A DNA stretch of 64,000 nucleotides from NCBI RefSeq assembly GCF_011064595.1, contig NZ_JAALJI010000006.1, positions 248,001 through 312,000 on the forward strand, in the 5' to 3' direction. The DNA comes from Paludisphaera soli (GTDB lineage: Bacteria > Planctomycetota > Planctomycetia > Isosphaerales > Isosphaeraceae). Both the position numbers and the translations under genes were made by a program. Below the pieces are notes generated by a model. That model had not been told where the DNA came from and did not search any database. It was given only the letters and a program-made list of their open reading frames with translations. Below, in pieces: positions 6,162-48,772 of the stretch. Within the stretch, counting starts at the first letter, position 1. Each line of letters starts with the position of its first letter.

Positions 6162-7607
6162 ATGATCAAGTCCAATCGCACGCTCGTCGTCGTCGCCTTC
6201 TCCGCCCTGGGGCTCGCGGGCTGGAAGGCCCAGGACCCCGTCGACCCCGCCGCGGCCCTCCCCGCCCCGCCGGCGCAGGCGGCTCCCGCGGCGGCCGCGG
6301 AGAAGCTCGTCCTGCTCCTGGACGGGCGGTTCGTGAAGGGCGTGGTCACGGAGGACGAGGAGGAGGACAAGGTCATCGTCACGCAGCCCGTCGGCGCGAT
6401 GACGTTCCCCGCCGGCAAGATCGAGCGGATCTTCGCCACGATGGCCGAGGTCCACGCCTACAAGCGCGACCAGGTCCCCGACGACGACATGGACGAGCAG
6501 CTCAAGCTGGCCCAGTGGTGCCTGGCGAACGGGATGCCGGCCGAGGCCCAGGAGCACCTGGCCTTGATCCTCAAAATCGACCCCAAGCACCTCCGCGCCA
6601 CGGCCATGAAGACCTCGATCACGATGGCCGAGGCTCGCCTGGCCAAGCGCCAGCAGATGGACGCCGGCGTCCAGCAGGCCGGCGCCGAGGTGGTCGACAC
6701 GAGCCCGGCCGCGCTCGACATGGCGGTGGTCCTGGGGGCCCGCCGGCGGATGGGCAACAACGACCTCCCGCTGGTCTTCGACCTCCCCCCCAATGCGGCC
6801 CTCAGGCGCTTCCAGGAGTTCAGCAACTACGTCCACCCGGTGCTGCAGGCCTATTGCGCCAAGTGCCACGCCGAGCGTTACGACGGCGAGTTCCAACTCG
6901 TGCACGTCCGCAACAAGGCGGAGCAGACGCCCGAGGCCGTGCGGGCCAACCTCGACGCCGCGCTCCGACTCGTCGACCGCGAGGTCCCCGGACGGAGCGA
7001 GCTGCTCGCCAGCTCGCTCCGGCCCCACGGCCGGGGGCCGAACACGCGGCCGATCTTCCCGAGTTCGAACGACCGGGCGTACCAGATCCTCTCGATGTGG
7101 GTGAGCAACCTCCGGTCCAAGCCCGTCCCCAACCCGCTGGCCGGCGCGCCCGCCCGGCCCGCGACGGCCGACGAGGAGGCCTTCGCGGTCGACCGGAGCC
7201 GCATCAGCCGGTCGACGGTCGCGGTCGAGCCGGTCGTCGCCGAGGGGGGCTTCGTCGCCCCGCCGCCGGCGCACCGCGTGATCCAGACGCCGGACATGCG
7301 CTACGTCCCGGGCCAGGGCATGGTCGAGGACGAGTCCGGCGGCGCCGACGCCCCGGTCCCCTTCGCCGTCTCGGGCGTCATGCCCAAGCTCCCTCCCGAG
7401 GGCCCCGCCGGCGCCCAGGCCGCCCCGGCGATCCCCCGCCCCCGATCGGCCGCCCCGGTCTCCGCCCCCGACGCCCCGCCCCTCCCCACGGCCGACGTCG
7501 AGGATGACGAGGACGACCTCCCCCCGCCCCCCAAGAAGCCGTCCAAGCCCCTAAAGCTCGACCCGGAGATGCTCCGGCGCACCCTCCAGCAGAAGCACGG
7601 CGGCTGA
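6162..7607 (+). CDS. Secreted protein with a single CxxCH haem-like motif
   Basis: A signal-like hydrophobic N-terminus (residues 7-22) is followed by an Ala/Pro linker, a domain with helical repeats (about 105-165, TPR-like: LAQWCLANGMPAEAQEHLAL), and a region around YCAKCH (C232, C235, H236). The context HPVLQAYCAKCHAERYDGEF resembles the cytochrome-like (PSCyt1-type) modules of planctomycete secreted proteins. The C-terminal third is Pro/Ala/Asp-rich and probably disordered, ending in a basic stretch. Covalent haem attachment in the periplasm is an inference from the motif. It is a single-gene unit, divergent from the Sm-like gene. Confidence 0.75.
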   Translation: MIKSNRTLVVVAFSALGLAGWKAQDPVDPAAALPAPPAQAAPAAAAEKLVLLLDGRFVKGVVTEDEEEDKVIVTQPVGAMTFPAGKIERIFATMAEVHAYKRDQVPDDDMDEQLKLAQWCLANGMPAEAQEHLALILKIDPKHLRATAMKTSITMAEARLAKRQQMDAGVQQAGAEVVDTSPAALDMAVVLGARRRMGNNDLPLVFDLPPNAALRRFQEFSNYVHPVLQAYCAKCHAERYDGEFQLVHVRNKAEQTPEAVRANLDAALRLVDREVPGRSELLASSLRPHGRGPNTRPIFPSSNDRAYQILSMWVSNLRSKPVPNPLAGAPARPATADEEAFAVDRSRISRSTVAVEPVVAEGGFVAPPPAHRVIQTPDMRYVPGQGMVEDESGGADAPVPFAVSGVMPKLPPEGPAGAQAAPAIPRPRSAAPVSAPDAPPLPTADVEDDEDDLPPPPKKPSKPLKLDPEMLRRTLQQKHGG

Positions 7608-38435: not shown

Positions 38436-39569
38436 TCAGTGCCAGGTGCCGGCGTCGGGGTTGGCCACCCAGGCCAGCACGGTCGACGCGATCGAATCCA
38501 GGGGGACGACGTACTTGGCCGCCCCCCGGCGGATCGCCTCGCGAGGCATGCCGAAGACGATGCAGGAGGCCTCGTTCTGGGCGATCGTGAGGGCCCCGGC
38601 CTCGCGCATCTCCAGCAGGCCGCCGGCGCCGTCGTCGCCCATGCCGGTCATGATCACGCCGGCGGCGGCCGGCCCGGCGGCCTGCGCGGCCGACCGGAAG
38701 AGGACCTCGACGCTCGGCCGATGCAGGCAGACCGGCGGGCCCTCCAGCAGCTCCACGCGATAGCCCGAGCCGTGCCGCTTGACCGCGCCGTGCGCGGCGC
38801 CGCCGGGGATGATCAACGCCCGCCCCGGCCGCACCGGCTCGTGATGCCGCGCCTCGACGACCTCCAGCTTGATCCGGGCGTCGTTGTTCAGCCGCTCGGC
38901 GAAGGCGCCGGTGAAGTCGGCGGGCATGTGCTGCACCACCACCAGGCCCGGCGCGTTGGCCGGGAACCCCGCCAGCAGGGCCTGGATGGCCTGCACGCCC
39001 CCGGTGCTCACCCCCACGACGACCAGGGGGTCGCTGGTCGTCCCCCTCGGCGTGTAGGGGACGTAGGGGAGGACGACGTCGGCCGAGTGCCGCGAGTCGG
39101 CGGGGCCCGTCGCCCGCTCCTCGCGCAGGGGGAGCTTGCCGGCGCGGGCCGCGTTGCGGATGCTCTCCAGCAGGTTGGCCGACCATTCCGGCAGCCGCGA
39201 GGCGTCCAGCCAGTTGGGCTTGGCGATGACCTCGATGGCGCCCATCTCCAGCGCCGTGACCGCCCGCTCGGCGACCGACGTGCAGAGGACCACGGGCATG
39301 GGGTGCTGCTTCATCAGCTTGCGCAGGAACGTCAGGCCGTCCATGCGGGGCATCTCGACGTCCAGCACGATCACGCCGGGGACCGACCGGCTGAGCATCC
39401 CCACGGCCTCGTAGGGGTCGGCCGCGAGGGTCACGCGGAAGCGGTGGTCGGACTCGATGATCGCCTTCAGGCGCTGGCGGATCACGGCGCTGTCGTCCAC
39501 CACCATCACCTCGATGGCCGAGTGATGGGCGGGCGGGACCGGCGGCTGGGAGCGGTCGCGCAGGGCCAT
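38436..39569 (-). CDS. cheB: Chemotaxis response regulator and methylesterase CheB
   Basis: A 377-residue CheB: receiver domain with phospho-acceptor Asp70 (VIVLDVEMPRMDG) and a methylesterase domain with Ser188 in VVGVSTGG, His214 in VVQHMP and Asp312/313 in TGMGDDG. It removes methyl groups from the receptor encoded upstream. Six bases separate it from cheR. It is the last gene of the chemotaxis operon. Confidence 0.93.
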   Translation of the reverse strand: MALRDRSQPPVPPAHHSAIEVMVVDDSAVIRQRLKAIIESDHRFRVTLAADPYEAVGMLSRSVPGVIVLDVEMPRMDGLTFLRKLMKQHPMPVVLCTSVAERAVTALEMGAIEVIAKPNWLDASRLPEWSANLLESIRNAARAGKLPLREERATGPADSRHSADVVLPYVPYTPRGTTSDPLVVVGVSTGGVQAIQALLAGFPANAPGLVVVQHMPADFTGAFAERLNNDARIKLEVVEARHHEPVRPGRALIIPGGAAHGAVKRHGSGYRVELLEGPPVCLHRPSVEVLFRSAAQAAGPAAAGVIMTGMGDDGAGGLLEMREAGALTIAQNEASCIVFGMPREAIRRGAAKYVVPLDSIASTVLAWVANPDAGTWH

Positions 39570-39575
39570 GGGGGG

Positions 39576-40442
39576 TCAATCCTCTTTCTGGAAGATCGAC
39601 GGCGATTGCTTGCGGAACATCGCCGGGACCGAGGGGAGGATCTCGCCGTTGCCCATGATCAGCCACCCGCCGGGCCGGATGTGCTGGGCGAGCCGGTTCA
39701 AGAGCACCTGCCGCTCGTCGTCCGAGAAGTAGATCGAGACGTTGCGGCAGAAGACCATGTGGAAGTCGGAGGGGATCGACCAGGGGCTGGTCCGCAGGTC
39801 GATGTGCCGGAACTTCACCAGGTCGCGGATCTCCGGGACGATCCGGAACGAGCCCTCGCGAGGCCCCCGGCCCAGCAGGAAGAACCGCCGCAGCCGCGCC
39901 TGGGAGACCCCCTGGACGTCGCGCGCCGTGTAGATCGCCCCGGCGGCCACCTTGAGCATCTCCAGCGAGAGGTCGCTCCCCCAGATGTCGATCCGCGAGA
40001 GGCTGTGCTGCGGCAGCGCCTCGGCCAGCGCCATGGCCATGCTGTAGGGCTCCTGGCCCGACGAGCAGCCGGCCGACCAGATCCGCACCGGGCCGTTCGG
40101 CGACTCCCGCAGCCACTGCGTGACCTTCTCGATCAGGAACGTGAAGTGGGCCGGCTCGCGGAAGAACGAGGTGTGGTTGACCGTGCTCAGGTCGATCAGG
40201 AGCTGGGCGCCCCAGCCCGTCGGGTCGGGCCGCAGCGCCTGGTCGTAGAACTGGGTGAAGCTGGCGATCCCCCGCGCCTGCAGCCGCGACCGCAACCGGG
40301 CCTGGAGCAGCCCCATGCGGTGCGTCTCCAGGCTGATGCCGATCTGGCTGCGGAGGAACCCGATGACCCCGCCGAAATCCTTCTCGGACCACGGTTCGGG
40401 ATCATTCGAGGGCGAGGGTGGCAGCATGCCCGACGACGCCAC
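39576..40442 (-). CDS. cheR: Chemotaxis protein methyltransferase CheR
   Basis: A 288-residue CheR, which methylates receptor glutamates using SAM. The catalytic fold is marked by VRIWSAGCSSGQEPYSMAMA and ASELD-like DIWGSDLSLEML, then FCRNVSIYFSDDERQVLLNR. The start of the protein carries a Pro/Ser/Asp-rich leader. It begins one base past the cheW stop and ends six bases before cheB. It probably docks to the C-terminal pentapeptide of the receptor encoded two genes upstream. Confidence 0.92.
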   Translation of the reverse strand: MASSGMLPPSPSNDPEPWSEKDFGGVIGFLRSQIGISLETHRMGLLQARLRSRLQARGIASFTQFYDQALRPDPTGWGAQLLIDLSTVNHTSFFREPAHFTFLIEKVTQWLRESPNGPVRIWSAGCSSGQEPYSMAMALAEALPQHSLSRIDIWGSDLSLEMLKVAAGAIYTARDVQGVSQARLRRFFLLGRGPREGSFRIVPEIRDLVKFRHIDLRTSPWSIPSDFHMVFCRNVSIYFSDDERQVLLNRLAQHIRPGGWLIMGNGEILPSVPAMFRKQSPSIFQKED

Positions 40443-40443
40443 G

Positions 40444-40956
40444 TTAGACTCCCTCGCCGTTTATCGAGGCCAAAACCGAGAACACACGGTCCACGTCGAG
40501 TACGAGCAAGAAGGCGTCCTGGTGACGGATCAGCCCCCGGACGAACGGGGTGGTCTTGCCGAGGCCCAGCTGCGGCGACGGCTGCACCTGCTCGGGCGAG
40601 AACTCCAGCACGTCGGAGACCCGGTCCACCAGCAGCCCCGTCACCTCCGAGTCGTTCCCCGCCTCGGTCTCCACGATCAGCACGCTCGGGGCGCGGGCCG
40701 GCTTGGCGTCGACGGGGAGGCCGAACGGGATCCTCAGATCATACACCGGCACGACGTGTCCGCGAAGGTTGATCACCCCCAGCAGGCACCGCGACGCCCC
40801 CGGGACCTCGGTGATCGCCAGCACGTCCAGCACCTCCTGGACGCGCAGGACCTCCAGCGCGTAGCCCTCGCCCCCCAGGCGGAAGACGACGTACGACTGG
40901 GCGCGGTCCCGGTCTCGGTCCCGTTCGGCGGCGTCGTCGGCGGTCAGGTCGATCAT
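40444..40956 (-). CDS. cheW: Chemotaxis coupling protein CheW
   Basis: A 170-residue CheW that links receptors to the CheA kinase. The core reads YVVFRLGGEGYALEVLRVQE, then EVPGASRCLLGVINLRGHVV and PVYDLRIPFGLP. An acidic/Arg-rich stretch of about 18 residues precedes it. The start follows GAAGGG. It lies 125 bases after the receptor stop and one base before cheR. Confidence 0.92.
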   Translation of the reverse strand: MIDLTADDAAERDRDRDRAQSYVVFRLGGEGYALEVLRVQEVLDVLAITEVPGASRCLLGVINLRGHVVPVYDLRIPFGLPVDAKPARAPSVLIVETEAGNDSEVTGLLVDRVSDVLEFSPEQVQPSPQLGLGKTTPFVRGLIRHQDAFLLVLDVDRVFSVLASINGEGV

Positions 40957-41081: not shown

Positions 41082-42989
41082 TCAGAATCGCTCGAAATTG
41101 TCGTCGTCGTCAAGGTTGACCACCACCCCGCCCCGGGGCGGCGGGACCACGCCGGTCGGCGAGGATCCGGCCCCGTGGCCCGCCGCGGGCGGCGGGCCGG
41201 CGGACTGGCCGTGGCCGCGCCCCGATTGCTCGTGGCCGTGGCCGTGGGACGAGCCGTGGCCGTGCGACGGGCCGTGGCCGCCCCCGGGCCCGTTGCCGCC
41301 GTCGTGGTGGCGGTCCCCCCCGAGCGCGGCCGGCGTCCGGTGCGTCGCGTGCGGGTGCGACCCCCCTCGCGGCCTGTACTCCAGCCCCCGGCCCGGCGAG
41401 GGGGCGGCCGGGGGGGCGTAGGCCCCGGCGTCCAGGCGGAAGAAGTCGACCTCCCGCTGGAGGCTCGTGGACTGCAACGCCAGGTCGGTCGAGGTCGCCG
41501 CCAGCTCGTGGCTGGCCGCCGCGTTCTGCGAGACCACGTCCTCCAGCTGCTTCACGCCGATGTTGATCTCGCGGATCGCGTTCATCTGCTCCTGGCTCGC
41601 CGCCGCGATCTCCGAGATCAGCTCGGACGTGTCCCGGATCATCGGCACCGTCCGCTCCAAAAGCTGCCCCGCGTTCTCGGCGACGGCCACGCTTTTCTTG
41701 GCCAGGTCGCTGATCTGCTGGGCGGCCGCCTGACTCCGCTCGGCCAGCTTCTTGACCTCGCCGGCCACCACGGCGAACCCCCGGCCGTGCGGGCCCGCCC
41801 GGGCGGCCTCGATGGCCGCGTTCAGGGAGAGCAGGTTCGTCTGGTAGGCGATGTCCTCGACGATCAGGATCTTCTGGGTGATCTCCCGCATCGCGGCGAC
41901 GGTCTCGTGCACCGCCTCGCCCCCGCGCCCGGCCTGGGCGCTCGCCTCGTTGGCGGTCCGGGCGGTGTCTCGGGCGTGCTGGGCGTTGCGGGCGACCGAG
42001 CCGTCGACCGACTGCAGGCTGCTGCCGATCTCCTGGAGCGTCGCCGCCTGCTGGTGGGCCCCCTGCGCGAGCTGCTGGGCCGACGAGTTCAGCTCGTTGC
42101 TCGCCGTCGAGACCGACGCGGTCGTGTTGCGGATCTGGCCCACGACCTCCGACAGCTTGACCACCACCGCGTCGGTCAGCCCCGCCAGCTCCCCCATCTC
42201 GTCGGAGCGGACGATCCCGGTGCGGTTGTAGAGGTGGCCTTCCTTCAGGTCCTCGGTGACGTGGATGATCTGGAGCAAAGGCTTGATGAACCAGCGGCCG
42301 AACAGGAAGCCCAGGAGGATCGTGAGCGGGATGATGGCACCCAGCAGCATCAGGATCTTGCTCTGGGAGTCGTAGATCGTCTCGTACGCATTCTTGCGGG
42401 GGACGGCCACGAGCACCGCGTAGCCGTGCTTGGCCTCGGCCGGGGCGGGCGTCGCCAGCCGGATCGAGGCGAAGCCCACGACTTCGGGCTCCAGGTAGGT
42501 CTCGCCGGCGACGGCCTCGACGTGGTCGTTGCCGATCGCGTTCTGGGCCCGGTTGACGACCTGCTCGTATCGCGACGGCAGCCGGTCCGACTTGTCCTCG
42601 AACTTGCCGTCCGGGCCGCGATGGTTGATCAGCACGGTGTTCTGCGGGTCGACGACCATCACCTGGGTGTTGGCCAGCTCGAACCGCGAGACGACCTCGG
42701 CGATCGCGTTCTGGATCATCCGCCGGGCGGCCTCGTCGAGGTTCCACTCCGGCAGCGCCATCCCCGCTTCCTCGGGGGCCGTGGCGGTGACCGGCTTGGT
42801 CTTCTGGTTGGTCAGGGCGGCGGTGTGGATCTTGTCGCTGATCGCGGCCGCGGCGGTCTGGATGATCAGGTCTTGCTTGCGCTTGAACTGGTCGTCGGCC
42901 AGGTAGGCGGTCGCCGCGACGATCCCCGCCGGGATCAGGCCGAAGGCCACCAGCGCCAGGGTGACTTTCTTCCGCAGGGTCAATCTCAT
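41082..42989 (-). CDS. Methyl-accepting chemotaxis protein with His-rich tail and C-terminal pentapeptide
   Basis: A 635-residue receptor: TM1 (residues 9-31), a periplasmic sensor (about 32-210), TM2 (about 212-233), HAMP, then a cytoplasmic signalling hairpin with the conserved tip [20 protein letters not shown] and [20 protein letters not shown] (about 374-413). After about residue 540 comes a flexible tail with many His-Gly pairs ([17 protein letters not shown]), possibly metal-binding. The last five residues are NFERF, fitting the x-aromatic-x-x-aromatic CheR-docking pentapeptide (NWETF in enterobacteria). Its ATG overlaps the cheA stop (ATGA). Confidence 0.92.
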
Positions 42990-45415
42990 CGGACGGTCTC
43001 CGCCCTCACGCCGGCCGTCGGCGTGCTTCGTAGGTTGTTCTCGGCGATCCGCGATTCCGATACGAGCGCCGCCAGGTCCAGGATCAGGGAGACCGAGCCG
43101 TCCCCCAGGATGGTCGCGCCGGAGAACCGGCCGAGCCCGTGGAGCCCCTCGCCGAGCGACTGGATGACGGCCTGGACCCGGCCGCTGAGGCGGTCCACGG
43201 CCACCCCCACGCGCTGGCCCGAGTGCCGGGTCAGCAGCAGCTCCTGGCGGGCGGGGGGCGTCCCCTCGATCCCGAACAGCCGTCGCAGCGAGATGGTCGG
43301 CACCAGCTCCCCGCGGACGGTCACGCAGGGCCGGCCGGCGGAGAGGGCCGTCTGGATCCCCCCGAGCGCCACGCATTCCTCGACCTGCGCCAGCGGCACG
43401 ACGTAGCGGCCGCCGCCGGTCTCGATCAGGAGGCCGTCGATCAGGGCCAGGGTCAGCGGCAGCCGGAAGATGAACGCCGTGCCTTTGCCCGGCGAGCTCT
43501 CCACGGCCAGGCTGCCGCGCAGGGCCCGCACGGAGTCGCGGACGACGTCCAGCCCCACGCCCCGGCCCGACATGTCGCTGACCTGGTCGCGGGTGGAGAA
43601 GCCGGGCTCGAAGATCAGGCCGACCACGCGGGGGTCGTCGGCCGGCGTGCCGGGGGGGATCAGGCCGCGCTCGACCCCCTTGCGGACGATCCGGTCGCGA
43701 TCCAGGCCGCGGCCGTCGTCCTCGACCTTCAGCGCCACCCGGTCCCCCTCGTGGCCGGCCGTGAGCGTGATCCGCCCGACCCGGGGCTTGCCGGCGGCGA
43801 GCCGCTCCTCGGGGGTCTCCAGCGCGTGGTCGACGGCGTTGCGGATCAGGTGGATCATCGGGTCGCCCAGGCGTTCGATGATCGTGCGGTCGAGCTTGGT
43901 CTCCTGGCCGACGATCCGCAGCTCGATCTCCTTGCCCGAGCGGTCGGCCTGGTCGCGGACGAACCGGGGGAACCGCGAGAACAGCTCGTCCACCGGGACC
44001 ATGCGGAGGTCCAGCGTGGTGTCGCGGATCTCGCGGCTGACCCGCAGGAGCGATTCCAGCGTGGCGCCCCAGGGGGCCGCGCTGCGGACCTCCCGGAGGC
44101 CTTGCAGGTTGTCGGAGATCACCGCCAGCTCGCCGGCCAGGCCGACCAGGTCGTCGAGCTGCTGGGCGTCGACGCGGATCCGGCCGTGGGTGCGGGCCGT
44201 CGGCGCGGCCGCGGCGGTCGCGGGCCGTTTCGCCCCGTTGGTCGCCGCGGCGCCGTCGGCGGCGGCCGGTGCCGTAGCCGACGCGGGCGGCCCGTCCGAC
44301 GAGGCGGGGGGCGGGGGCCGATGCGCGGAGACCGGGGTGGGGGGCGAGGAGACCGGCGTCCCCCTCGGCAGCTTCAGCAGCGGCGTCTCCACCGGCTCGA
44401 AGCCGCCGTCGGCGAGCCGACGCTCCACGCCGATCGCGCCGTCCTCGGCCACGAACAGGAAGACGTCGTCCAGCCGTTCGGGCTCGACCTCGGTCCGGAG
44501 GGTGCAGGTCCAGCTCAGGTAGCAGCGCTCGGGGTCGAAGTCGTCCAGGGGGGGGACGGCGTCGGCGTCGGCCCGGACTTCCAGCTCGCCCAGCTCGCGA
44601 AGCTCGTCGAAGACCCCCAGCAGGTTGACCCCGCGCTTCAGCACGTCGGGACCCGGCGCGAACCGGATCCGGTAGAGGGGCTTGGCCTCGTCGGGGGCGG
44701 ACGCCTCGGCGGGCATCGACTTCCGCTCGGCCCCCTTCATCCGGGCGGGGGCCTTGGGCTTGGAGGCACCCTCCCCCGCGGCCTTGCGTCGCGAGCGTTT
44801 GGGCTTGGCGGCCTTGGGCTCGGGTTCGGGCGGCGGCTCGGGCGTGACGGGCTCGGGAGGCGGCGGCGTGGGGGCCGTCGGCGCGGGCTTCGGCGGTTCC
44901 GGCTTCGTCGGTTCGGGCCTCGGCGCGGCCTTGGCGGCCGACGGCGGCGCGGGGACCGGCGCCGGCGAGGGCGAGGGATGGGCCGGCGGCGCGGCCGGGG
45001 GGGGCTCGTCGGGCGGCGGCTTGGGGGTGGAGGGCGAGGTGAGGAGTTCGGCGAGCCGCTGGCTGAGGTGGCCCGAGCCGGGGATCGGCGACGACGCGGC
45101 CTCGCCCTCGACCATCGCCGCGAGGTGGTCGCGCGATTCCAGGAGCGTGGTGATGATGTCCGAGTCGACGGCCAGGCTGCCGGTGCGGATCCGTTCGAGG
45201 ACCGCCTCGATGCCGTGGGTGAACTCGGCGATCGCCCCCAGGCCGACCATCGCCGCGGCCCCCTTGAGGCTGTGCGCGGCGCGGAACGTCTTGTCGAGGT
45301 GCGCGCGGTCGCCCTGGCGTCGCTCCAGCTCCATCAGGCCTTCTTCGAGGCTGATGAGAAGCTCGCGCGCCTCCTCGTAGAACATCTCGCGAAATCGATC
45401 GTCCGCGCTTCCCAA
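42986..45415 (-). CDS. cheA: Chemotaxis histidine kinase CheA
   Basis: A 809-residue CheA. Domains in order: HPt with phospho-His48 ([10 protein letters not shown]), a long Pro/Ala/Glu-rich linker (about 115-240), a P2/regulatory-like domain (about 245-340), a second Pro/Ala-rich linker, dimerisation, HATPase ([16 protein letters not shown], then [17 protein letters not shown] and [14 protein letters not shown]) and a C-terminal CheW-like domain. It phosphorylates the CheY-like regulator and CheB. Linkers are unusually long and low in complexity. First gene of the operon cheA-mcp-cheW-cheR-cheB. Confidence 0.93.
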
Positions 45416-45731: not shown

Positions 45732-46097
45732 CTATTCCGGCAGGACGCGGCGGACCCAGCGGCGGAGGTGCTCGCCGTCGACCGGCTTGACCAGCCAGCC
45801 GGTGACCCCCTGCCGGCGGCGGGCGTCGAACTCGCCGGGCTGCTTGCTGGAGAGGACCAGGACGGGGAGGAAGCGATGGGCGGGCAGCTCCCGCACGGCG
45901 GCCAGCAGCGCCAGGCCGTCGAGGTTGGGCATCTCCAGGTCGGTCAGGAGCAGGTCGCAGGACGAGTCCTGGAGGTATTGCAGGGCGGCGTCCCCGTCGG
46001 CGACGGAGACGACCTTCAGGCCCATCCCGCCGAGCTGCTCGGCGACCCAGCGACGGACCGATCCGCTGTCATCGGCGTGGAGGACGGTCTTGGTCAT
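45732..46097 (-). CDS. CheY-like single-domain response regulator
   Basis: A 121-residue receiver: DD at residues 9-10, phospho-acceptor Asp53 in LLLTDLEMPNLDG, the conserved Ser of VLVLSSKQPGEFD and Lys of WLVKPVDGEHL. It is a free receiver domain and could be the CheY output for this chemotaxis set. The start is ATG 46097; longer in-frame codons to 46193 look like leader sequence. It lies between the STAS gene and cheA, on the same strand. Confidence 0.85.
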   Translation of the reverse strand: MTKTVLHADDSGSVRRWVAEQLGGMGLKVVSVADGDAALQYLQDSSCDLLLTDLEMPNLDGLALLAAVRELPAHRFLPVLVLSSKQPGEFDARRRQGVTGWLVKPVDGEHLRRWVRRVLPE

Positions 46098-46308
46098 GGT
46101 CTTGATACCGGCGCCCGGCGAGTCCTGCGGGTCGTTCAGACGCGGGCGTCTGGCCGCGGGCGCGGTGAGAGTCTGGGGGGAGGCCCAGTTCATGTTCGCC
46201 GCCTTCTGGCTGGTCCCCCCGGCTTTCGGCTTCCGCCGCCGAGATCGAAAGGGGGGCGACTTCGTCTTCGAGTCCCGCCGGCCGGGGCCTTGCGGCCCTC
46301 CGCCGAGG

Positions 46309-47421: not shown

Positions 47422-48591
47422 TCACTTCGGCGCGGGGTGCTGGATGACGATGATGTTGATGTCGTCGGCCGGACGGCCGGGGGCGGTGTAGGCCTGGACG
47501 GCGCCGTCGACCTGGTCGATGATCTCGGTCGGGTCGCTGCCGTAGTGGCCCTGGAGCAGGGTCTTGAGCCGCTCCTCGCCGAAGATCACGTCGGCCGGGT
47601 CCATGGCGTCGGGGAGGCCGTCGGTGTAGAGGATCAGCGACTCGCCCGGCTCCAGGCGGTCGGCGGAGCCGGCGGTGCCGTCAACCATGCCGATGCCGAG
47701 CATGCCCGGGTTCGACTCCAGGAGCCGGGGGCCGTTGGGGCCGATGACGATCCCCGGCGGGTGGCCGACGCCCGCGTAGCGGATCAGCCCGGTCTCCTCG
47801 TCGGCGATCAGGTAGAACCCGGTGCAGAAGTAGCCTTCCGGGAAGTGCTGCTCGCCCGAGACGTCCAGGCCGGCGAGGAGTTCGCCGGGCTCCAGCACGG
47901 CGATCGACAGCCCGGAGGCCAGCGTCTTGACCATGCCCGAGAGCATGGCCGCGTTCACGCCGTGGCCCGACACGTCGGCGACGAGGATCCCCAGCCGGTT
48001 GTTCTCCAGCCGGTAGAAGTCGTACACGTCGCCGCCGAGCTGGTTGGCCGGCGTGTAGCGCACGGCGACCCTCAGCACGCCCCGGGGCTTGGGGGGGCGG
48101 GGCATCATGGCGAACTGGACCTTCCGCGCCAGCTCCAGCTCGAACGTCAGCTTCTTGTGGGCGCTTTCCAGGAGCCGGTTGCGCTCGGCCAGCTCGGAGC
48201 GGAGGTCGGCGATCCGCAGGTGGGCGCGGATCCTCGCGAACATCTCCTGGATGTCGTCCGGGCTCTTGGGCTTCTGGATGTAGTCGTCGGCCCCGGATTC
48301 CAGGCCGGCGATCTTGTTGCGGGTCTCGCCCAGGGTGGTGAGCATGAGGACGGGGATCGACCGCAGGTCGACGTCGGCCTTGGCGGCCGTGCAGAAGCCG
48401 GGGCCGTCCAGCTCGGGCATCTCGTAGTCGGTGAGGATCAGGTCCGGCCTGGGCTGCTCCTTGGCGGCGACCAGGCCCTGCGACCCGTCCTCGGCCGTGC
48501 GGACCTCGTAGCCCTCTTCCTTGAGCAGGGTGCCGAGCATGCGGCGCATCGTGGAACTGTCTTCGACCAGCAAAATCCGACGCGACGACAT
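47422..48591 (-). CDS. Response regulator with PP2C-type (RsbU/SpoIIE) phosphatase domain
   Basis: A 389-residue protein with an N-terminal receiver (phospho-acceptor Asp55 in LILTDYEMPELDG), a coiled coil (about 120-155) and a SpoIIE-type phosphatase domain (GGDVYDFYRL, LVADVSGHGVNAAMLSGM, ILYTDGLPDAMD). Such proteins usually dephosphorylate an anti-anti-sigma STAS protein under control of a kinase. The only STAS gene nearby lacks the target Ser, so the partner is unclear. The ATG at 48591 follows GGGGAGAG. Confidence 0.85.
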   Translation of the reverse strand: MSSRRILLVEDSSTMRRMLGTLLKEEGYEVRTAEDGSQGLVAAKEQPRPDLILTDYEMPELDGPGFCTAAKADVDLRSIPVLMLTTLGETRNKIAGLESGADDYIQKPKSPDDIQEMFARIRAHLRIADLRSELAERNRLLESAHKKLTFELELARKVQFAMMPRPPKPRGVLRVAVRYTPANQLGGDVYDFYRLENNRLGILVADVSGHGVNAAMLSGMVKTLASGLSIAVLEPGELLAGLDVSGEQHFPEGYFCTGFYLIADEETGLIRYAGVGHPPGIVIGPNGPRLLESNPGMLGIGMVDGTAGSADRLEPGESLILYTDGLPDAMDPADVIFGEERLKTLLQGHYGSDPTEIIDQVDGAVQAYTAPGRPADDINIIVIQHPAPK

Positions 48592-48772
48592 CGACGTTCT
48601 CTCCCCGGCCCGGCTCGATCGCCCCCGCGCGACGCAACCGTCGGCGCGGGGCGTCGGGAAACGGATCATCGACCCGCCCCCGGCCGGAGGGTCCGGGTCG
48701 AAGGCGGGGAATCCCATGATAGGGGACCGGACGCGACGGTGGCTAGACCACCCCGCCCCGGCACCCGCCCCG

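Follow-up and report, generated by a model that had tools for sequence, protein, structure and literature searches.

A conserved 16-residue C-terminal tag very probably holds the methylation enzyme of a Paludisphaera soli chemoreceptor nearby

The chemoreceptor encoded by mcp in the window (the whole stretch of 64,000 nucleotides that was analysed) very probably holds its own methylation enzyme, CheR, nearby by means of a 16-residue tag at the receptor C-terminus. Docking of CheR by the tail is well supported by comparison, and the initial annotation, in which the terminal pentapeptide NFERF was proposed to recruit CheR, appears to be right in kind; the noteworthy point is the longer conserved anchor. 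In the reading favoured here, in which we place high confidence, a 34H/F8-like receptor possesses a disordered arm ending in an extended CheR-docking tag, which would tie CheR to the receptor, while the His-bearing part of the arm would be a spacer. From the sequences we infer the binding itself, the insulation of pathways that might follow from it and the role of the strand and acidic spacer preceding the pentapeptide.

The genes of the locus are arranged in the order cheA, mcp, cheW, cheR, cheB.

42986-45415, minus strand: cheA, with Hpt, HATPase_c and CheW domains
41082-42989, minus strand: mcp, chemoreceptor of 635 amino acids (reading frame; PF00015, 2.1e-34)
40444-40956, minus strand: cheW (PF01584, 6.7e-34)
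39576-40442, minus strand: cheR, methyltransferase of 288 amino acids encoded in the same operon as mcp (PF01739, 6.9e-53; PF03705, 1.1e-8)
38436-39569, minus strand: cheB, receiver and methylesterase (PF01339, 6.5e-57; PF00072, 2.9e-22)

The placement of a receptor at 41082-42989 in the initial annotation was borne out, the gene product being a 635-residue receptor encoded on the minus strand. The gene starts with ATG, and its start overlaps the stop of cheA. The HAMP match (22.3 bits) is under the Pfam cut-off of 25, and no Pfam match was found for the extracytoplasmic part. In the AlphaFold model a long N-terminal helix is followed by an alpha/beta domain, a signalling hairpin reaching to residue 516 and a disordered tail. 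By our own reading of sequence and model, the receptor would consist of an N-terminal transmembrane helix, an alpha/beta extracytoplasmic domain, a second transmembrane helix and a HAMP-like region, and the predicted signalling hairpin would span about residues 264-516. CheA contains a long insertion rich in Pro, Ala and Lys (residues about 125-235) after its Hpt domain (8-97), and a DUF1559 protein (PF07596) neighbours the che locus.

The conserved end of the receptor is located as follows.

41085-41132, minus strand: conserved terminal module, residues 620-635, kept in 28/28 receptors
41085-41099, minus strand: pentapeptide NFERF, residues 631-635, C-terminal end of mcp

The family sample comprised 45 genomes including that of the window. 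At a threshold of E <= 1e-55 a receptor match was obtained in 29 of the 45, and a locus was taken for each of the 28 besides the window's genome. Counts for module and linker refer to 28 receptors readable to the end (the window and 27 relatives); L035 was dropped for a frame break in its linker. The receptor ends in NFERF as initially annotated, which matches x-[FWY]-x-x-[FWY]. F-[EQ]-R near the C-terminus is kept in 28 of 28 receptors and is followed by F in 24, M in 3 and Q in 1. Both aromatics of the pentapeptide are thus kept in 24 of 28, exactly C-terminal in 10 and with one trailing S or N in 14, while the second aromatic is lost in four (FERM in 3, FERQP in 1).

The conserved unit, as read from the alignment, is 16 residues long and reaches beyond NFERF, a feature overlooked in the initial annotation. 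Across the 28 receptors it has the pattern [GS]G[VI][VILF][VI][NSD][LM], 4 to 6 mostly acidic residues, x, F, [EQ], R, so that a short beta-prone strand (VVVNL in the window) and an acidic spacer stand ahead of the pentapeptide; the distance from the strand to Phe is 5-7 residues in the family. By column counts on the 24 ungapped rows (the gapped receptors L041, L146, L149 and L150 were dropped), residues 620-630, the 11 preceding NFERF, are about as conserved as the pentapeptide. Over all pairs pN/pS was 0.16 for the module and 0.27 for the signalling domain, compared to 0.87 for the linker and 0.95 for the extracytoplasmic region, the latter two values being rough because both alignments are poor at such distance. 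Mean identity over the 28 receptors was 78% for the module, in spite of high synonymous change (pS 0.73), and 25% for the linker. Among five sequences of the genus the module was identical in 10 of 10 pairs, with the linker 41% identical. The AlphaFold model of the receptor is uninformative on the bound state, the terminal module alone lacking a confident fold. A chance C-terminal motif was ruled out by the conservation and by the pairing with CheR.

The module is preceded by a low-complexity linker.

41133-41432, minus strand: low-complexity linker, residues 520-619, rich in His, Gly, Pro and Ser, predicted disordered (pLDDT, composition, pN/pS)
41175-41357, minus strand: linker portion that contains the 13 His, at residues 545-605, with no His conserved (composition, His columns)

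As cut for counting (518-620), the linker of the window receptor comprises 103 residues with 13 His (12.6%). The initial annotation described a His-Gly tail of more than 60 residues, for which about 60 is a fair figure, all His lying between 545 and 605, but it omitted the His-free stretch 606-630 situated between the His part and NFERF. It further noted that such docking peptides usually follow a short flexible linker. Flexibility is consistent with pLDDT < 50 at residues 523-567 and 569-621 in the AlphaFold model; the linker is long, with 51-103 residues in the 28 receptors. A tandem repeat of 6/18 bases at 41206-41280 in the DNA under the His part fits growth of the linker by slippage. In the relative G002 the frame break lies within the His-rich linker (L035, about 6500-6760), with the module readable in another frame, and may be an assembly error or real.

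The proposal that the His tail binds metal and couples metal level to CheR docking, and hence to methylation, did not withstand the comparison, and we regard it as very improbable. His is plentiful in the window linker and enriched in most others (mean 7.8% compared to about 1.8% in the receptor core, 28 receptors), which would suit a metal ligand; but the number per linker ranges from 0 to 13 (0-15.4%), and among the 13 columns with His in the window, even the most widely shared shows it in no more than 11 rows (of 27 present), several others being occupied in just 1 to 6 rows. Conserved metal-ligand residues, as expected of a metal-sensing tail, were not found in the linker. Because linker His is unconserved in number and place and the linker is nearly unconstrained (the rough pN/pS given above), the metal sensor is without comparative support and was rejected on conservation. 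A check of tail conservation had been proposed along with the idea, and it shows a His-rich linker that varies almost freely. A literature search on His-rich C-terminal metal tails of chemoreceptors found no bacterial receptor by title. The stretch looks like an ordinary, fast-changing flexible linker or spacer.

The putative partner of the module is the CheR encoded in the same operon, for which one segment is of special relevance.

39792-39896, minus strand: segment of the CheR beta-subdomain carrying the long loop RFFLLGRGPREGSFRI, equal in length (35 residues) to that of Salmonella CheR

Salmonella CheR (1bc5/1af7) gave the best PDB sequence matches of the window CheR, and no indel was found between the two across the peptide-binding part of the beta-subdomain. 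In Salmonella CheR the segment is 35 residues long, a length shared by 23 of 23 operon CheRs aligned (window and L035-L056; the CheRs of L146-L150 were left out of this alignment). It is shorter in P. aeruginosa CheR1 (32 residues) and in the remaining three CheRs of the window's genome (32, 31 and 31). Long-loop CheRs accompany pentapeptides and short-loop CheRs form another group (PMC3062574, PMC5907407, available parts), and in Salmonella CheR a three-stranded sheet gains a fourth strand when NWETF binds (PMC8609364, available part). Six residues contact the peptide, namely Q182, R187, G188, G190, G194 and R197 (PMC2577667, available part). Four of them, G188, G190, G194 and R197, are kept in the window CheR, which departs at two (Q182 to R, R187 to L). 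G188, G190 and G194 are present in 23 of 23 operon CheRs and R197 in 22 of 23; position 187 varies among the 22 orthologues (L in 12, R in 9, M in 1). Gaps at 188 and 190 and T, E or V at 197 are seen in the remaining three CheRs of the window's genome and in the second one of G001. In the AlphaFold model of CheR, pLDDT is below 50 at 170-201, exactly the beta-subdomain, and the loop assignment therefore rests on sequence alignment. The ten best solved folds for this model, with TM-scores of 0.48-0.67, are CheR-type enzymes from Salmonella, P. aeruginosa and Bacillus subtilis.

Neither a loss of the motif nor a CheR devoid of the beta-subdomain, both of which would have spoken against docking, was encountered: F-[EQ]-R is universal in the family receptors and the long loop is present. 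Docking by the pentapeptide is likewise supported by the pairing of receptor and CheR across genomes; the two departing contacts of the window CheR, the lost second aromatic or the trailing residue in 18 family receptors and the rarity of R197 in outgroup CheRs are points against it. The window's genome encodes three receptors and four CheRs, with the tail on mcp only (the two other receptors end ISGFKV and PAPRPS) and the long loop on the operon CheR only. In each of the 29 receptor-bearing genomes this CheR has a close counterpart (E <= 1.4e-79). In 14 of the 45 genomes neither a receptor nor a CheR better than 2.3e-32 was found, several of these genomes being 68-81% complete; in G034 and G064 a close CheR lies on a contig that stops short of where the receptor gene would be. 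The five che genes occur in the same order in 22 of the first 23 relatives, the cheB of L040 being cut by a contig end. Since operon genes are inherited jointly, the co-occurrence is explained in part by their linkage. G008 is the one informative exception, in which the genes are apart and the long loop is kept: the locus around its best receptor (L057, 9 kb) yielded no other che gene, its cheW, cheR and cheB lie on a separate contig without a receptor match within the 12 kb read, and the CheR segment still has 35 residues with R187, G188, G194 and R197 (aligned by eye). G008 encodes two tailed receptors off this contig (L061, 9051-10601, plus strand; L057, 2663-4378, minus strand), one of which ends HFERIP.

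Two loci run counter to the pairing. In G001 a second receptor ending NFTRF, with the related strand AGVVIQLDED, is encoded near a short-loop CheR, and this genome also possesses a long-loop CheR. In the outgroup locus L105 a long-loop CheR stands with a matched receptor that has no pentapeptide. The second receptor of G001 (L062, 7643-9265, minus strand) ends AGVVIQLDEDQEQAHDRNFTRF, a module of the same kind with a longer spacer. Two further regions of the window's genome encode CheR-domain proteins. One, at L060 8520-9368 (plus strand), is followed by a CheB-like sequence, and the other, at L059 7067-8401 (minus strand), has a long extension at its C-terminus of TPR-like appearance, a feature met in non-motility pathways.

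Outside the family, 80 receptors from other groups were obtained by a receptor-alignment search, none of them of the family by title, and 24 of these end in a pentapeptide-like motif. Ahead of the motif, 10 of 35 distinct outgroup tails carry a strand (for example GVHLQL, AINLDL or GIHIEL), eight of the ten coming from G067 and G069. The strand pattern was written after the first outgroup tails had been viewed and was then fixed for a retest; it matches 27 of the 28 family receptors. The retest drew on one locus from each of 29 additional genomes that share their class with a Desulfuromonadaceae bacterium (the best of 42 among 58 genomes with a receptor match), from which L183 (no motif) and L197 (cut by a contig end) were dropped, leaving 27 tails. 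Of these pentapeptide-like tails 12 matched, compared to 0.046 expected from linker shuffles (maximum 1 in 500), although the retest is still biased because the query used for fetching contains the module. Many of the 15 tails that fail the pattern show a similar strand by eye. In this class about 8-11 residues separate strand and Phe. Three tails in the set assigned to Pseudomonas and five assigned to the betaproteobacteria did not match the pattern. As the strand occurs in the family and in the Desulfuromonadaceae class, it is common to at least two distant groups of such receptors. In the 13 outgroup loci with a pentapeptide-like receptor end, the CheR segment has 35 residues in 11, 34 in one and could not be aligned in one (L094); without the latter, G188 is kept in 10 of 12, G190 in 7 of 12 and R197 in 2 of 12. 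The outgroup linkers L171 and L175-L181 share a mid-linker QIAH-like segment (QVAH in L175), possibly a further contact.

In the mechanism we propose, the long disordered arm would carry the docking tag at the receptor C-terminus, and NFERF would join the beta-subdomain of the operon CheR, whose gene lies two genes downstream, as an additional strand at its edge. Such tethering would concentrate CheR locally around the receptor array, and binding of the operon CheR to mcp might keep the several chemosensory pathways of the cell apart; with three receptors and four CheRs, the window's genome would make this a simple organism for the study of pathway insulation by a tether. The VVVNL strand and the acidic spacer probably provide a two-strand (hairpin) anchor or a second contact, and the acidic turn may face the basic CheR loop GRGPREGSFRI. 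Extension and pentapeptide together have the shape of two strands of five residues each, joined by an acidic turn of four, and the extension is therefore most simply explained by a hairpin that contributes two strands; a longer turn would be expected for the outgroup class, with 8-11 residues between the last strand residue and Phe. We tentatively suggest that strand, acidic spacer and FExF form a bipartite anchor that lies as a beta-hairpin on CheR in receptors of the 34H/F8 type from Isosphaeraceae and Desulfuromonadia-like bacteria, and that it may dock more tightly or more selectively than NWETF, perhaps in a charge-tunable manner.

The extension might instead serve a second partner, with NFERF docking CheR and the 11 preceding residues binding CheB, CheW, CheA or a receptor neighbour in a two-site scaffold. 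A strand and acidic spacer about as conserved as the pentapeptide would be expected there too, the spacing between strand and Phe, which differs between family and outgroup class as given above, would be accommodated, and E. coli CheR binds the bare Tar/Tsr pentapeptide with a KD of about 2 uM (PMC7390727, available part). The peptide of Salmonella CheR, however, is bound in strand form (PMC8609364, available part), so that a further strand on CheR is a simpler assumption than a hypothetical second partner; we consider the two-site scaffold unlikely. The tail could also be an ordinary pentapeptide tether whose upstream conservation reflects mere recent descent within one family. Pentapeptides are common, being present on 10.78% of bacterial receptors (PMC7390727, available part), and the strand pattern is absent from the majority of the retested outgroup tails. 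Recent descent fits poorly with a module that keeps 78% identity at a pS of 0.73 next to a linker down to 25%, or with a similar strand preceding FEKF/Y in the outgroup class far more often than shuffling predicts, and the ordinary tether appears rather improbable to us. If the hairpin anchor is real, some receptors of the class would use a larger docking element, of which the textbook pentapeptide is no more than the last portion. The motif survey method described in the available part of PMC7390727 requires xZxxZ at the very C-terminus, and such surveys would therefore miss many members, here 18 of 28. A literature search covering titles, abstract openings and the passages cited here found no description of an extension before the pentapeptide, though one may be present in supplementary files.

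Two genes upstream of cheA are of interest with regard to the output of the pathway.

45732-46193, minus strand: CheY-like receiver protein just upstream of cheA (PF00072, 1.1e-17)
47422-48717, minus strand: protein with a receiver and a SpoIIE-type phosphatase (PF00072, PF07228)

Sequences similar to the former were found in 25 of 28 family loci examined and to the latter in 21 of 28, several loci being too short to reach it, and the two proteins may be the output of the pathway, which would suggest partner-switching control rather than a flagellar motor. The flagellin N-domain had no match in the window's genome despite its three chemoreceptors and four CheRs, while the secretion/pilus ATPase family PF00437 had eight; the available part of PMC5352709 describes members of the Isosphaeraceae as being without motile swarmer cells.

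The signalling hairpin of mcp aligns without gaps over 234 residues to a Desulfuromonadaceae receptor ending EFEKY and with one 2-residue gap to a Pseudomonas receptor ending EFTRF, while another receptor of the window's genome carries 7 extra residues on each hairpin arm. Class 34H receptors have pentapeptides of the type xF/YxxF/Y (PMC2577667, available part), which NFERF matches, and belong to F8 systems (PMC11253619, PMC7184735, available parts). On account of the hairpin alignments, the Phe/Tyr-type pentapeptide and the published link between 34H and F8, mcp is called 34H/F8-like, a probable assignment made by alignment and pentapeptide type. Features of pentapeptide-tethered receptors, i.e. 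a terminal motif, a linker of at least 10 residues (103 here) and a long-loop cognate CheR, are all present.

The tail resembles that of Tar/Tsr with NWETF and Salmonella CheR (1bc5) in the aromatics at positions 2 and 5, the acidic character and the disordered linker, and the window CheR shares the long loop, G188, G190, G194 and R197 with the Salmonella enzyme. It differs in Phe for Trp at position 2, in linker length (about 35 residues in Tar/Tsr compared to 51-103 in the family), in the 11 additional conserved residues before the pentapeptide and in the one trailing residue in 14 of 28 receptors. The class 34H receptors of Geobacter (EFEKF, group B CheRs; PMC2577667, available part) also combine an xFxxF pentapeptide with a cognate pentapeptide-type CheR in the cluster, whereas the window cluster has a single receptor, and in the outgroup class the strand stands farther from Phe (about 8-11 residues instead of 5-7). 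In P. syringae the sole 34H receptor is the only pentapeptide receptor, and its cluster holds the only CheR with the GXX insertion, so that one pentapeptide receptor is paired with one insertion-type CheR as in the window (PMC11253619, available part); the F8 system of Methylomicrobium likewise has a 34H receptor (PMC7184735, available part). On the other side, one 2-residue hairpin gap separates mcp from a Pseudomonas receptor, and the Pseudomonas tails examined fail the strand pattern. The Che2 system of P. aeruginosa (McpB/Aer2 with GWEEF, and CheR2) shares with the window the combination of one tailed receptor and one long-loop CheR among several, a case of insulation by tethering (PMC7390727, PMC3062574, available parts), but uses a Trp-type peptide and belongs to class F7 (PMC7184735, available part).
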